Shown here: positions 7,239 through 15,804 of the stretch, in pieces
Layout: every line of letters starts with the position of its first letter
Position numbering within the stretch: the first letter of the stretch is position 1
DNA from: Candidatus Saccharimonadota bacterium
Lineage (GTDB): Bacteria > Patescibacteriota > Saccharimonadia > Saccharimonadales > Saccharimonadaceae
Length of the DNA stretch: 64,000 bases
Direction: 5' to 3'
Assembly (NCBI GenBank): GCA_009992235.1
Contig: JAACVZ010000003.1
Coordinates: 1 to 64,000, forward strand
The notes under the pieces: model-generated
What the model was told of the DNA's origin: nothing
The model's database searches: none
Seen by the model: the letters and a program-made list of their open reading frames with translations, nothing else
Position numbers and translations under genes: made by a program

Positions 7239-10055
7239 TTATCGCAGTTTAACTGATACACCTGGGTGATCATCACCACTTTCCCGCACGTTCAAATCGT
7301 GCGGGTCGGTTGTTTCTTGTGGTGTATGTGGCGCCTGAGGCTTCGGTTGACCTACCGTAGGTCCAAACGCTGGATTCTTTTCAGGAGCAGCCTTCTGTGT
7401 TTGAGTTTGAGCAATTTGCTGTCTCTTCTGAAGCCAATCGTCAAGGAATGACGGTGCCTTAGGCGCCTGAGGAGCGCTCTGAGGAGCTGGTTGCAACGAG
7501 CTAGCAATTGGTGCATCCTGTGCCGCCAAAGGCGCCTGAGGAGCCGCTGCGCCCTCCTGGAAGCGTGCCATCCGCTCCTGCTGTGCCTGCTTCATGGCCT
7601 CCATCTTTGCCTTACGTGCAACATCACCGGCGCTCATGCGGTTAAAGAAATCTCGTTCGACTTCCGCGCGAGGCTTTCCGTACTTTGCGGCCGATAGTTT
7701 CTTAAGAGCGTCACGAAGCTGTGGGTTCGATCGACCGAGTGGCGGAATAAGCGACATGCTAAACGCTGCAGACGGAACGTCTTGAATCATTACCGACGCA
7801 ACCGTTTGGAAATTCGGTAGCCGCGTTAAGTCTTCAGTATCAAAGGTTGGTGAGAATTTCTTTACGAGAATTTCAGCATCGGTAATACCTATACGTCCAC
7901 TAATAACTGTTCCAATGTTTCCTAGAATAGCCTCCCGTATTTGGTCGGTTAACTGCGTCATGAACTGGTTAGCAAGAATAAGGCTCAAACGGTACTTTCT
8001 GGCCTCAGACAAGATGGTAGCGAACGAGTCAGTCGCAAAGTTTTGGAACTCATCAACATAGAGGCTGAAGTCATTTCGCTCTGCTTCGGGAACGTCGGCT
8101 CGACCCATGGCGGCGGCCTGGAACTTCATCACGAATATCATTCCTAGGAGCTGCGAGTTGAGTTCGCCTACCCTTCCCTTGGAGAGGTTCACTAGAAGAA
8201 TCTTCTTGTTGTCCATAATTTCACGAAGATCAAAGCCGCTCTTTGTCTGGCCTATGATATTACGCATCATGTCGTTTGCAAGAAACGCACCAAACTTGCT
8301 GGCAAACCATCCAAGAATTTCACCCTTAGCCGACTCGGGTGTTTGAGCCATTTCTTTGTTCCAGAAATCGAGCACCGACTGAGTCTTGACGTGTTTGATC
8401 TTCTCATCGGCAAACGGTTGGTCAATAAATACTTGTTGAACATCGAGAAATGAGGAGCCCGCAGGGTCGGACATAACCGTAAGTGCACCGTAGCGGAACC
8501 ACGACTCAAAGCGCGGCCCAATAATACCAGTGTGGCCAGGGTCGTATAACTTATAGAGCATTGCGATTGTTTCTTGCACCAAGAAGTCACGCTGGTCTTG
8601 GCTGTCGAACTCAAACAGGTTAAGCCCAACCGGCATTTCCATATCGCCCGGGTTGAAATAAATAACATCCTCAACTCGCTCCTTTGGTACCATACCAAGC
8701 AGCTCTTCAGCCGAGTCACCATGCGGGTCAATAAACGCGAAGCCACGACCATCCATCATGTCCTGGAAGGCAAGGTTCTCAAGCAATTTAGACTTACCTG
8801 TACCAGTTTGTCCAATGACGTAGGTGTGGCGACGACGGTCGGTCTCGCCAAGACGAATTTGTTTTTTCACGCCCCGGAATTCGTTATACCCAAGCAAAAA
8901 GCCCTCTTCCATAGTGTGGGTTGGCCCGTCCACCTGCTTACTTGCCTGGCGTTTTACCTGTGAGTTTGGAATAGATGCTTGGTCTGGAAGGTGAAAAATA
9001 GTTGCCAGTTCAATAGTATTTAAGATATTTTGAGTAATCTCCTGCGGGAAGAACCGGAAAATATAGGCCGTAACAAACTCATCGATGTTTTTAGAAACGG
9101 TAAACTTGAAGCCATTGTTAGATGACGAGTCGAAAAGCGAGAAGGCCGATACGACACCATTCATAAGCGCCTGCGAGCGAGCGGAAGTGTTAGATGAAGC
9201 GACAACCCTAATGAGGGTTTCGTATCCCGGGTATCGCGTCTTCTCGTCTATCGAGTCGACCTCGGCTTGTTCAGCCGAACTCATTTGGCGGTCTTCCGGC
9301 TTCACGTCTTCAACCTCTGGTGGTTTCCATAGCGCCTCAAACATACCCTTAGTTTGAAACCCGCCGCCCGAACTCTTACCTTTGTTCTTGCGTATACCAT
9401 CTGCAATTGAACGTGCGTTCTTAGCCCAACCCTCACCAGCCGGTCGAATAAGAATTTGCACACCTATGCCGTCTTCCTTGGTCGCCTTAGACAAGGCATC
9501 CAGAAGGGCTCGAGACGCATCGCGTTTCGATTCTTGGTAGGTCGCAATAGAATAGGCAAAGTCTTTCTTTAATGTGAACTCACCACCAATAGTACCGCTC
9601 ATTTTTCCGGCAGGATTGAAGATATTGCGCTCACTCACCTCTTCTAGACGCGCCGACGGATAGGCAGCCGATACGGCCTGCTGAATAAGATCGATTAATG
9701 ATACTGGGACAATTGCGTAATAGTGCACTAGACCTTCATGAGCAACAATCTCAAACGACATATGCCGCTGACCATATATCTTACTCTTAAAGCCCTTTAC
9801 TGCAGTGCTGGCAATAATGTTATACATAACCTGCGCTTGAGAAATAACTTCTTCGGTAATATCACGTTCATCGCGACCATTGCCTTCAATGTCGGAGCTG
9901 ACCGGAGGTATGTGTATATAGAGTGGCACCATCTTAAGGCCACGTTCATAATTCTTAGCCTCACGAAGGACCTTACGGTACTGAGAAAAAGCGAAAAAGC
10001 CAACACCGCCTGCGATAAGCAGAATAACGACTATGGTGATGATTGTCCCTAACAC
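7239..10055 (-). CDS. VirD4/TraG-like membrane ATPase
   Basis: 938 residues, GTG start with GAGGGAATGAG upstream. An N-terminal TM helix (IITIVVILLIAGGVGFFAFS) is followed by a 370-residue domain with MVPLYIHIPPVSSDIEG, then a HerA/FtsK-superfamily ATPase core: Walker A GQTGTGKS near 415, FIDPHGDSAEELL, Walker B LYVDEFQNF near 665, ARKYRLSLILANQ and a conserved Gln/Arg sensor region. The C-terminal ~130 residues are Gln/Ala/Pro rich and probably disordered. The core matches type IV secretion coupling proteins (VirD4/TraG/TraD, HerA-like), but no VirB or relaxase genes are adjacent, so it may be an isolated CPR translocase moving DNA or protein. It lies downstream of a small Pro/Gln-rich gene in the same operon. 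Confidence 0.85.
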   Translation of the reverse strand: MLGTIITIVVILLIAGGVGFFAFSQYRKVLREAKNYERGLKMVPLYIHIPPVSSDIEGNGRDERDITEEVISQAQVMYNIIASTAVKGFKSKIYGQRHMSFEIVAHEGLVHYYAIVPVSLIDLIQQAVSAAYPSARLEEVSERNIFNPAGKMSGTIGGEFTLKKDFAYSIATYQESKRDASRALLDALSKATKEDGIGVQILIRPAGEGWAKNARSIADGIRKNKGKSSGGGFQTKGMFEALWKPPEVEDVKPEDRQMSSAEQAEVDSIDEKTRYPGYETLIRVVASSNTSARSQALMNGVVSAFSLFDSSSNNGFKFTVSKNIDEFVTAYIFRFFPQEITQNILNTIELATIFHLPDQASIPNSQVKRQASKQVDGPTHTMEEGFLLGYNEFRGVKKQIRLGETDRRRHTYVIGQTGTGKSKLLENLAFQDMMDGRGFAFIDPHGDSAEELLGMVPKERVEDVIYFNPGDMEMPVGLNLFEFDSQDQRDFLVQETIAMLYKLYDPGHTGIIGPRFESWFRYGALTVMSDPAGSSFLDVQQVFIDQPFADEKIKHVKTQSVLDFWNKEMAQTPESAKGEILGWFASKFGAFLANDMMRNIIGQTKSGFDLREIMDNKKILLVNLSKGRVGELNSQLLGMIFVMKFQAAAMGRADVPEAERNDFSLYVDEFQNFATDSFATILSEARKYRLSLILANQFMTQLTDQIREAILGNIGTVISGRIGITDAEILVKKFSPTFDTEDLTRLPNFQTVASVMIQDVPSAAFSMSLIPPLGRSNPQLRDALKKLSAAKYGKPRAEVERDFFNRMSAGDVARKAKMEAMKQAQQERMARFQEGAAAPQAPLAAQDAPIASSLQPAPQSAPQAPKAPSFLDDWLQKRQQIAQTQTQKAAPEKNPAFGPTVGQPKPQAPHTPQETTDPHDLNVRESGDDHPGVSVKLR

Positions 10056-10085
10056 CTCATTCCCTCTTCTTTGCTCTCTCTACGT

Positions 10086-10508
10086 TTACTCGGCGCCTAC
10101 TGTTTTGCCGTAGCGCTTCTGAATATAATCTCTCTGCAGTTGATTCACTTTATTTGTACGCACATATGGATCGTCCTTTGTAGCCTGGACAATTTCTTTC
10201 GACTTGTCGATCCACTCTTTCTCGATGACATCCTCGTCGGCGGCAACAGTTGGACCAGTAACGTTAGTGTCGTCCTGTGCCGATGTAGCACCGGACGCTA
10301 CCGGCTGAACCGGCACCTGAGGTTGCGCCACCTGGCTGAGGTCGTTAACCACCGCACTTGCTTCGGCGACCTGTTCGTTTCGCTCTACTCCCTTTTGAAT
10401 TCCTTGCTCGACTGGAGGTATGACTGGTCCATGCTCACCAGTTTGGGATGGCGGCATAGGAGATTGCTCAAAACCTTCGAGAGGTCGCTGTGAATTCTCT
10501 GGTTGCAT
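10086..10508 (-). CDS. Hypothetical Pro/Gln-rich protein, likely leaderless
   Basis: 140 residues, no recognised family. The first 90 residues are rich in Pro, Gln, Ser and Val and look disordered; the last 50 (EDVIEKEWIDKSKEIVQATKDDPYVRTNKVNQLQ...) form a charged helical segment with a YIQKRYG ending. It heads the operon containing the TraG-like ATPase, whose own C-terminus is also Pro/Gln rich, so it may be an accessory factor of that ATPase (inference). TATAAT ends 8 nt before the ATG, so the mRNA probably starts at or one or two bases before the start codon. Confidence 0.75.
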   Translation of the reverse strand: MQPENSQRPLEGFEQSPMPPSQTGEHGPVIPPVEQGIQKGVERNEQVAEASAVVNDLSQVAQPQVPVQPVASGATSAQDDTNVTGPTVAADEDVIEKEWIDKSKEIVQATKDDPYVRTNKVNQLQRDYIQKRYGKTVGAE

Positions 10509-10552: not shown

Positions 10553-10939
10553 TTACGGTATTCGACGTGAAATATAAACACAGGCGACCACCTCGAAGGC
10601 AATCACTAAAATAATTTCATACAGCCCAACGGATCCGACGGACTGGAGTCCAATTAGCATGACCGGAGCCATGGCGAGCACTGAACTGTAGTAATAGGCG
10701 CGTTTGAAAGGCAACGGATAGATAGGGCGTGAGGTCGCAAGACTAACCGAGAAAAAAGCTATGAGTCTGCTGGCGGCAGACAAAAAAAGGCTTATGACTC
10801 CCACCAGGAATACATAAGCCGATATAAAAATTGCAAGAAGACCGAGTGGACCCGCGGTGGCGGGAGTCGTAAAGGTCACAAGCGTCAAAAGTACCGCAAG
10901 CGATACGACTGAAACAGTGGTGACAATACGTGGTAACAT
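10553..10939 (-). CDS. Hypothetical four-TM membrane protein
   Basis: 128 residues from ATG 10939 (MLPRIVTTVSVV); an upstream in-frame ATG at 10990 gives a longer 145-residue product without improving the N-terminus. Four hydrophobic helices: residues about 5-25, 30-55, 80-97 and 105-122, joined by short basic loops (SRPIYPLPFKRAYYY). No family is recognised. TGGTATAGT (952-947 plus TGG) ends 7 nt before ATG 10939, which supports that start and a leaderless mRNA. It stands alone between the ATPase operon and the RNA-rich region. Confidence 0.65.
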   Translation of the reverse strand: MLPRIVTTVSVVSLAVLLTLVTFTTPATAGPLGLLAIFISAYVFLVGVISLFLSAASRLIAFFSVSLATSRPIYPLPFKRAYYYSSVLAMAPVMLIGLQSVGSVGLYEIILVIAFEVVACVYISRRIP

Positions 10940-11037
10940 CCCTGTTACTATACCATAGTCGTGAAATGAAATGGAGCCCGAGCGATACACTTAAATGTTC
11001 CGGTTGCAGCAAACGCTACCTAATAAATTATTGAGCG

Positions 11038-11345
11038 TGTGAACCAAGAACAGCGTACCGCTGCGGACTATCTGACCGCTCCGGGAAAACCCAGAGCAAC
11101 CGTTTGCTCATAGTCCTCTGTTCCGGCGATACGCCACGTAGTTTCATTGCTTTTTCTGGAAAAGAAAACAAGGATTAACGTGACGTATCGGTACTAACAG
11201 GACAAACGCTTTTGGCGGAGCATCGGTCCCGCCAACTAGAATGTAAAAAGGTGCGTGTACCTCAAGGTGAGGATACAGTTTCATTCTCCGGACGGTACCG
11301 ACTTTCCGTCAAAAGGACGGTCAGTGAAGATACAAGATTTTATGA
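11038..11345 (+). ncRNA. Candidate large structured RNA, family unknown
   Basis: No convincing ORF, but nested inverted repeats fill the segment: GAACAG...CTGTTC enclosing GGACTAT...ATAGTCC, itself enclosing GGG-AAAA-CCC and GAGCAA-CCG-TTTGCTC; CGATACG..ACGT...ACGT..CGTATCG around a TTTTC/GAAAA hairpin; GGCGG...CCGCC; TGTA-CCTCA-AGG-TGAGG-A-TACA; CCGTC-AAAAG-GACGG. Loops are A-rich on the plus strand, favouring plus-strand transcription. A weak promoter (TTGCAG, 17 nt, ATTATT at 11004-11032) precedes it. The 3' end is uncertain; T-rich sequence follows at 11360-11400. Not RNase P, tmRNA or SRP RNA by motif. Confidence 0.55.
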
Positions 11346-12066
11346 TGTTAAGGTGTGTGGTGGCTTTTGTTTGTTTTGTTTAAAAGCTTGTTTTTACTCT
11401 AGCATAACCTCTTTGGTAGGTCAACCGTTTTTAACGGGTATATTGTAGTAGTATTCACAATAGCGTGCTTAATGTATTAGCTATTACAGATGAGAGTACG
11501 TACTCGATGTTATAAATACTACGTTGTAGCATGTACTTCTGACATGCGCCATTGTGCCGTCATTACGACAAAATCACATATAAATGATCCTCATCTCCAC
11601 TAGCCTGTCGCTATTTTCAGCCGCCCGTGCGCTAACGGACATTGCACGTATACACACTAAGTCGGACATGCCCACATAAATCATCCCGCGCTCGAACCGC
11701 GAGGCCATAACACTACGTACGTGAAATGTGCACCACAAAAGTATCTGACTGACTTTGGGCCGCACAGGTCCAAGCTCGAACTAACACGCACGTTATGTCG
11801 TAGCGCTATGAAGCCGAACGTATATATCGACGTACCCGCAACGACCCGATTCTAGACCCATTGCTGCGACGCCAGCCTGTTCTGCGCACAGCCTACAATC
11901 GCCCAGCTAGAATCCAAGCCCGCACAACCCACCCATAGCGTACGAAGACGACCGATTAACACAAGAAAAACGAACATACCCTTTCCGCTAGCTGAACACA
12001 TAGACGTTGCCGGCAATTATTACTTTTTTGTGACGTATTTTCTATAAAAAATGTATGAAAAAGTTA
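11346..12066. other. ORF-free region with small palindromes
   Basis: About 720 bases without a credible gene on either strand. After a T-rich stretch (11360-11400) there are several short palindromes: GAGTACGTACTC, CTAC-gtt-GTAG and GCATGT...ACATGC between about 11488 and 11552, and CGTGC...GCACG near 11630. They could extend the upstream RNA or be remnants of decayed sequence. Short reading frames here have no ribosome-binding sites or recognisable domains. Confidence 0.5.
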
Positions 12067-12095
12067 TTGACACAAGCGGAATTTCGTCATACTAT
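12067..12095 (+). promoter_or_regulatory. Strong promoter of a small RNA
   Basis: TTGACA, 17-nt spacer, TACTAT: consensus -35 and good -10. It drives a short transcript that ends at a terminator about 100 nt on, with no ORF between. Confidence 0.8.
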
Positions 12096-12101
12096 AGGGG
12101 T

Positions 12102-12198
12102 AGTTCCTGAATAAATAAATTGTCCAGGGGCCCAAAACAAAAAACAACGAAAAACTCCACAATAGACGACCGTTCCTCGCAGGCGGTCGTCTTGTTTT
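12102..12198 (+). ncRNA. Putative ~97-nt small RNA
   Basis: Bounded by the promoter at 12067-12095 and by an intrinsic terminator (AGACGACCG, 11-nt loop, CGGTCGTCT, then TGTTTT, 12164-12198). The body is unstructured and A-rich (CCAAAACAAAAAACAACG), like a trans-acting or protein-binding sRNA. No ATG occurs in it. It is convergent with tmRNA, whose terminator is 27 bases further on. Confidence 0.65.
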
Positions 12199-12224
12199 AT
12201 GCCTTATGCCACTGAAACGGCAAC

Positions 12225-12260: not shown

Positions 12261-12665
12261 TGGTGGAGCTGTCGGGTACTGCCCCCGAGTCCAAAAGGTA
12301 ACCGGTTATTCGTCTTCAAGCATAGTCACATGATTCTTTTTAGAACTCCCAGACCTTCGTATGTGACGCACATGGTCCGTTCGTTCCGCCAGGAAATGTC
12401 CCCCTACAACCCTGACTGCACAGATGTATGGGTAAGAAGCATGAGTATAACACCAGATCTCCTATGCTTCCTGAGAGAATCTGATGGTTGCGGCAACTAG
12501 GCTACAACTGGCGCAAAAACAGGGACACGGAAAGCGTTAGCCAACTGTGCGAATCCTGATTTTACTTTAGCAAATGTGTTTGCAATTAAATAAACACCTT
12601 ACGAGTGTAAAACGGCTTGCAGAATAACTTGTTAAATTCCTCTTGTCGAAAGCTAATTCAGCCCC
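12261..12665 (-). ncRNA. ssrA: Transfer-messenger RNA
   Basis: 405-nt tmRNA that rescues stalled ribosomes with SmpB. The 5' end GGGGCTG pairs with CAGCTCC before the encoded ACCA 3' end to form the acceptor stem, and the 3' T-arm-like segment (GGACTCGGGGGCAGTACCC) is present. The resume codon is GCA at 12583 and the tag reading frame ends at TAG (12499-12497), giving a 28-residue tag that begins ANTFAK and ends FAPVVA. That is much longer than the ~10 residues of E. coli (ANDENYALAA) and lacks the usual LAA end. The remaining sequence carries the pseudoknot region. An extended -10 promoter and a strong terminator frame it. Confidence 0.93.
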
Positions 12666-15468: not shown

Positions 15469-15469
15469 A

Positions 15470-15804
15470 GTAGCAGCCAGCCTGTAAGCCGGGTTTTGTC
15501 GAGGACGACCATCTATCTAGTCATGCCATTGCTGGCACGATCAAGCGGGTATCGGCCAACGAACGGATCGTTCTTTAATGTTGACCTCCTTGCAGCCGAC
15601 AGGGTTTACCTTCTCCATATGTCACCATATGACGCTGTGGGCTCTTACCCCACTCATTTCACCCTTACCGCTTGCGCGGCGGTTTTGTTTCTGTGGCACT
15701 TTCCCTAGGGTTGCCCCCGGTCGCGGTTAGCGACTGTCGTATCCTGTGCTGCCCGGACTTTCCTCTTGTCAATAAAGACAAGCGGTCGTCTAGCTGACTG
15801 CCAC
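15470..15804 (-). ncRNA. rnpB: RNase P RNA (type A)
   Basis: 335-nt catalytic RNA of RNase P, which matures tRNA 5' ends. Minus-strand landmarks: GAGGAAAGTCCGGGC (CR I), AGGGTGAAATGAGTGGGGTAAGAGCCCAC (in two parts, CR II/III region, given here only as landmarks), and ACAAAACCCGGCTTACAGGC (CR V). P1 is formed by GTGGCAGTCAGC at the 5' end and GCTGGCTGCTAC at the 3' end. The extended -10 TGC-TATAAT (15815-15810) predicts transcription start at 15803, in agreement with P1. It ends at the shared hairpin at 15444-15468. Confidence 0.96.

Follow-up and report, generated by a model that had tools for sequence, protein, structure and literature searches.

The window, that is, the whole stretch of 64,000 nucleotides analysed here, comes from contig 2 of a genome of 691 kb. 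It contains a spacer of about 1.3 kb that runs from the start of a small membrane-protein gene (position 10939, minus strand) to the tmRNA gene (12261–12665, minus strand), after which comes comM (12731, plus strand). Within this spacer we identified the gene for a structured noncoding RNA (Table 1). The RNA is followed, beyond the membrane-protein gene, by p140 and p938 (7239–10508, minus strand), which encode a proline-rich protein with a conserved COOH-terminus and a TraG/TraD-type coupling ATPase, respectively, and which also come after the RNA in the loci of the order that were read. The tmRNA was found with an Rfam match of 83 bits and missed by ARAGORN, and is therefore divergent. A candidate small RNA lies on the plus strand between the window RNA and the tmRNA (12035–12203) and is present in at least 11 genomes of the genus; it has a promoter (TTGACA, 17 nt, TACTAT; 12067–12095), a length of about 95 nt, and an intrinsic terminator (12164–12192). 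The roughly 600 bases between these two conserved RNA elements (11430–12034) lack similarity among the genus relatives compared.

Table 1 Features of the RNA gene and of the gene downstream of it (window positions).
Feature	Position	Strand	Details and basis
Structured noncoding RNA	10972–11389	–	418 nt; ortholog alignment, fold z –4.7, covariation, strand test; both ends inferred
Predicted RNA promoter	11396–11424	–	TTGACC (11419–11424), 17 nt, extended –10 TGC TAGAGT (11396–11401); consensus scan and aligned relatives
5' hairpin GCUUUU / AAAAGC with A-rich loop AAACAAAACAAAC	11363–11389	–	Kept in genus and order; A-rich tract test
Conserved motif ACCUUAACA	11344–11354	–	Alignment
Region closed by proposed long-range helix	11207–11314	–	RNAalifold on ortholog alignment; family f1 only
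Stem GAUACGUCACGU / ACGUGGCGUAUC, preceded by invariant AGUAC	11127–11197	–	Alignment and consensus fold
H3 hairpin with near-invariant GGAGCGGUCAG	11065–11096	–	Invariant columns and covariation
H4, long 3' hairpin with AU-rich loop CUCAAUAAUUUAUUA	10981–11062	–	Covariation; R2 and R3 searches
Downstream gene, 128-aa four-helix membrane protein	10553–10939	–	Linkage, model pLDDT 93, own promoter signal

The 5' end of the RNA was placed approximately 7 nt past the –10 element and the 3' end at the conserved CGGGCUCCA, both positions being estimates. Transcription is predicted to start from the conserved promoter, the consensus of which among minus-strand copies is TTGAC, 17 nt, and the extended –10 sequence TGnTAnnnT. 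Read along this strand, the copies present the promoter, the hairpin formed by GCUUUU, an A-rich loop and AAAAGC, and the motif ACCUUAACAAUU, followed further 3' by the long-range helix GACGG/CCGCC, the stem CACCUAGU/ACUAGGUG (the form taken in relatives by the stem at 11127–11197), and the near-invariant GAGCGGUCA. Their long 3' hairpin terminates in CGCUCGGGCACC, and the predicted 3' end of the RNA lies near the motif GGGCACC/GGGCUCCA. In the window, the proposed long-range helix would pair UUUUGACGGAAAGUCGG (11297–11314) with CCGAUGCUCCGCCAAAA (11207–11227), the length of its interior being variable. The fold z-score against shuffled sequences was –4.7 for the minus strand and –2.4 for the plus strand. 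Given that the 3' domain contains 66 G-U and 10 A-C cells among its non-Watson-Crick cells, counts that would be exchanged on the plus strand, the minus strand is the RNA strand, and a plus-strand RNA was rejected on the basis of the promoter, the z-scores, and this asymmetry.

Conservation was examined at the level of both sequence and pairing. At the DNA level the locus is conserved in 16 of 17 genomes of the genus, including that of the window itself, and when 61 related genomes were searched with the DNA sequence, similarity was seen to fade within the family. In the 3' domain, both-sided changes were apparent for 23 of 36 pairs and 92.4% of cells were able to pair, compared with 83.1% for shuffled sequences; the signal was destroyed when one strand was slid in a control. 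The helices of a covariance model built from more distant copies (R2, described below) likewise covary. Nothing at the RNA locus exceeded the Rfam 15 cut-off and nothing credible was found at E ≤ 10, the best chance match over the window RNA being a microRNA model far below cut-off. Scans at E ≤ 10 of the window, 18 short-form loci, and 3 other loci yielded only tRNAs beside the locus above cut-off, and scans of 13 further loci at E ≤ 1 yielded nothing above it except adjoining tRNAs. Neither Rfam 15 nor the open literature that we searched, a body with few subscription journals and no preprints, yielded a description of the RNA. There is hardly any doubt that a conserved RNA gene is present.

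An earlier note, made from the letters of the window, had proposed a large structured RNA outside the known classes at 11038–11345. We find that this interval contains no credible coding sequence and that the RNA folds beyond chance, matches no Rfam 15 family, and is, as the note held, distinct from the RNase P RNA and tmRNA, which are located elsewhere in the window (15469–15801 and 12261–12665, respectively). The Rfam scan that the note suggested matched the locus to no known family, and the covariation in relatives to which it referred is strong. The proposed interval lies within the RNA, but it leaves out the 5' hairpin as well as a large part of the 3' domain, the extent of the RNA being about 11389 to about 10972; an A-rich loop is indeed present in the 5' hairpin, whereas the stems had been read on the wrong strand. 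The note had also compared GTGTG near the start of its interval with the 5' consensus of group II introns. This sequence is present on the plus strand at about 11037–11041, but it is the complement of a conserved CACAC in the 3' hairpin and so is on the wrong strand for such an intron. The absence of domain V and of a reverse transcriptase, which the note had itself remarked on, was borne out, with no intron family matching either strand at E ≤ 10 and no reverse transcriptase in the spacer. Given also that the locus is fixed across the order, the chance that the RNA is a group II intron remnant is practically nil.

The distribution of the RNA was determined with two models, R1 (17 sequences) and R2 (12 short-form sequences), whose E-values are rough. 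R1 matched 38 of the 149 genomes of the Saccharibacteria order, its distant matches corresponding to a short form of the RNA. R2 matched 112 of these 149 genomes, in almost every case with a single match and mostly with E-values from 1e-8 to 1e-22. Together with 19 genomes of family f1 detected with R1, approximately 124 of the 149 genomes carry the RNA, usually as a single copy. The short form consists of the promoter, an A-rich-loop hairpin (GUAAG..CAAAAACAAAAA..CUUAC), a middle part reading UAUCGCUC..GAGCGGUCAGUCA, and H4 in the form GGACGGUAAGCGCU, AU-rich loop, AGCGGAUUUACCGUCC, with a terminator 20–60 nt past H4 in most instances; it thereby retains the modules of the 5' A-rich-loop hairpin, the GAGCGGUCA hairpin, and H4. 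When 84,980 species genomes were scanned with an exact pattern, 61 loci were found, each in a record titled Saccharibacteria, Saccharimonas, Saccharimonadales/-ia, Patescibacteria, or plain bacterium. Two R2 matches were discarded: that at L078 (E of 0.07), which by eye resembles a clpB-type coding sequence, and a spurious match on another contig of genome G015. The existence of the RNA and its conservation across the order are solid.

We also searched with R2 in 380 genomes of the phylum; genomes outside the order are known here by family label rather than class name. A clear match was obtained for G265 (L073), a genome of the same class that belongs to a different family and falls outside the order; there, the RNA includes the 5' hairpin and is accompanied by the membrane-protein gene. 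Weak matches were found in G298 and G418, per-genome E-values outside the class being 0.01–0.08. Each of these two weak matches proved to be the 3' hairpin of an intergenic RNA that has both a promoter and a terminator, the loci being arranged as recA–RNA–zinc finger–lspA or RNA–lgt–zinc finger (the zinc finger of G418 was read by eye, Pfam having given none), and the RNA of G418 is kept in all 14 genomes of its family that were searched. A model of H4 alone (R3) was built from 22 sequences, including the families of these other-class loci, matches in which are therefore by construction. R3 found H4 in the families f83, f167, f74, f64, f161, f61, and f103, none of which was used for training, as well as in f38 and f41 of the same class as the window. 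Altogether, the searches based on H4 extended to about ten additional families of other classes, and there H4 forms the end of intergenic, promoter-driven RNAs that are 300–500 nt long and carry ACAAAAACAAAAA tracts. H4 is the module common to the window RNA and these classes, and 9 of its 13 pairs covary across classes, as computed on the R3 training alignment.

It might be argued that the Saccharimonadia RNA and those of other classes are unrelated and have converged on a similar terminal hairpin, given that H4 matches beyond the class extend over a short stretch, that the R2 E-values there are 0.01–0.08 per genome, and that H4 doubles as a terminator in some lineages. However, the seven R2 matches in 67 kb of other-class loci were all at the H4-type 3' hairpin. 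Moreover, a composition test detected an A-rich tract in 11 of 12 RNAs found via H4 alone, against a mean of 1.6 for shuffled sequences; the corresponding values were 10 of 10 for f81/f97, 19 of 20 for the short form, and 11 of 18 for f1. Genome G470, of the same class, combines the A-rich 5' part with the CUACUGUUCG domain, and a downstream membrane-protein gene is common to five families. Convergence is therefore unlikely, and the RNAs of the different classes very probably constitute one family. A family that spans the CPR in shorter or longer forms is well supported.

Eight RNAs (from f83, f74, f41, f161, f61, and f97) contain a central strand B, with the sequence CUCUUACUGUU or CCCCUACUGUUCG, that is able to pair with either an upstream strand A or a downstream strand C, one helix forming at a time. 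For seven of the eight (L217, L223–L226, L230, and L231) both pairings surpassed nearly all shuffles, and A and C vary together with B; the pairing of the f97 copy was not significant relative to shuffles. No strand B was recognisable in the Saccharibacteria order containing the window. The regular expression used for this test missed B in f81 and f64, and its assignment in f81 (L122) was wrong. A two-shape switch in the related RNAs is thus a possibility arising from computation, and we are inclined to doubt, without much conviction, that it is functional.

The predicted model of the membrane protein encoded downstream of the window RNA is a confident four-helix bundle (pLDDT of 93), for which neither a Pfam relative nor a fold relative in a PDB search was found. 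BLAST detected the protein between the RNA and p140/p938 at 19 of 30 loci in the order, and a similar-sized hydrophobic open reading frame was visible at most of those missed. A small predicted four-helix membrane protein is the next gene in the order and in five further families; in f38, f39, f41, f64, and f74 a similar small protein follows the RNA and is itself followed by pheS (called by eye in f39, as were gene names elsewhere that lack a Pfam basis). Alignment of the protein between classes is weak. Other genes follow the RNA in f81, f97, f61, and f161, so that the membrane-protein gene does not adjoin it everywhere.

In the order and in five additional families, this gene lies immediately downstream of the RNA and reads in the same direction, as would be expected if the RNA were a cis-regulatory leader. 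An attenuator or riboswitch of this kind would govern expression of the membrane-protein gene and of the operon that follows it. Such a role is improbable, however, because the short form has a terminator of its own downstream and because a –10-like element is present just before the membrane-protein start codon at 16 of 20 loci, compared with 7.6 for shuffled sequences (in the window, TATAGT at 10947–10952). In other classes, furthermore, the downstream genes are unrelated (lgt, zinc finger, UPF0102). As judged from sequence, a constant downstream gene dependent on read-through was not found. The RNA is thus likely to act in trans.

To place the RNA among known systems, we compared it with several described RNAs. 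The OLE RNA (RF01071) is likewise a large structured RNA of unknown biochemical function present in many species, and the gene next to it likewise encodes a small protein, OapA, that has four membrane helices (PMC11332333, PMC12265935; the helices, PMC11332333). The two differ in phylum and in size range (190–680 nt), and RF01071 did not appear among the matches at E ≤ 10 for the window plus 21 further loci, or among those at E ≤ 1 for an additional 13. The four-helix neighbour protein also gave no CNNM/CorB match in Pfam or the PDB search, such kinship being a trait of OapA, and homology to OapA thus found no support from Pfam or fold comparison. By analogy with OLE and OapA, the RNA is plausibly membrane-associated. 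The raiA motif or ModT RNA (RF03072; PMC11706538) is also a free-standing, widely conserved structured RNA with a housekeeping promoter that lies near competence and translation-related genes, but it differs in phyla (Bacillota, Actinomycetota) and architecture and gave no match over the same loci at the same thresholds. The genes for tmRNA and RNase P RNA lie nearby on the same strand and likewise encode structured RNAs, but their models (RF00023 and RF00010) match elsewhere in the window and not at the RNA locus.

The main rival to a membrane-associated particle is a role in binding RNA polymerase, as do 6S or Ms1, or the ribosome. The RNA would then be a global regulator acting directly and without the membrane protein, with the hairpin and A-rich loop as docking sites and the alternative pairing releasing the RNA. 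Like 6S RNA (RF00013), it is a single-copy, widely distributed noncoding RNA, the short form of which is about 200 nt. Consistent with such a role are its near-universal occurrence as a single copy, the alternative helices, its position beside a DksA/TraR-type zinc finger gene in some other families, and the lack of a detected 6S RNA in the genome, although the control search also misses some genomes. The Rfam 6S model, on the other hand, matched neither the whole genome nor the RNA locus, nor any of the short-form and other loci scanned, and the several hairpins of our RNA contrast with the one long hairpin with a central bubble of 6S RNA. We regard direct polymerase or ribosome binding as possible but rather doubtful.

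No SRP RNA (RF00169) exceeded the cut-off in 41 genomes; Ffh is absent from the window's own genome and the SRP_SPB domain from 26 genomes of the order and other Patescibacteria. Loss of SRP in the CPR has been published (PMC4508563, PMC8080830). One strong SRP54 match, in the large genome G008, may represent contamination. Since neither SRP RNA nor Ffh was detected, a diverged SRP RNA was considered, and it was set aside because the SRP protein is also missing.

A trans-acting housekeeping RNA is the best supported interpretation, because the RNA is near-universal and usually single copy, possesses its own promoter and terminator, and has changing neighbours. In the mechanism that we propose, the gene would be transcribed independently on the minus strand from its conserved promoter, and the RNA would act within an RNA-protein particle, H4 and the A-rich loop presumably binding proteins, given that both are conserved. 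The likeliest partner would be the adjoining four-helix membrane protein, a possible partner outside the RNA itself that would tether the particle to the membrane. This partnership is suggested by the retention of the linkage while the genes beyond change and by the analogy with OLE and OapA; the linkage may also reflect gene-order stasis, given that comM, p140, and p938 are conserved around the RNA as well, and we consider the partnership only tentatively. In other classes the particle may switch between two shapes, with strand B paired to either flank. The proposal as a whole, an independently transcribed, trans-acting housekeeping RNA of Patescibacteria in a particle with a membrane partner, seems to us about evenly balanced between right and wrong. 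Far more speculatively, and with little likelihood, a membrane-bound, shape-switching particle that arose early in the radiation with a dedicated four-helix protein could replace part of the missing work of SRP, such as co-translational membrane targeting.

Patescibacteria form a very large bacterial radiation of ultrasmall, parasitic organisms whose tiny genomes contain little that is superfluous. The RNA is probably important to them, given that nearly all members of an order have retained it and that it can be recognised in other classes as well. Some Saccharibacteria have been cultured and are genetically tractable (PMC10633639), and the function of the RNA is therefore directly testable. 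Should it prove to form an RNA-protein particle at the membrane, a second system akin to OLE would have been identified.
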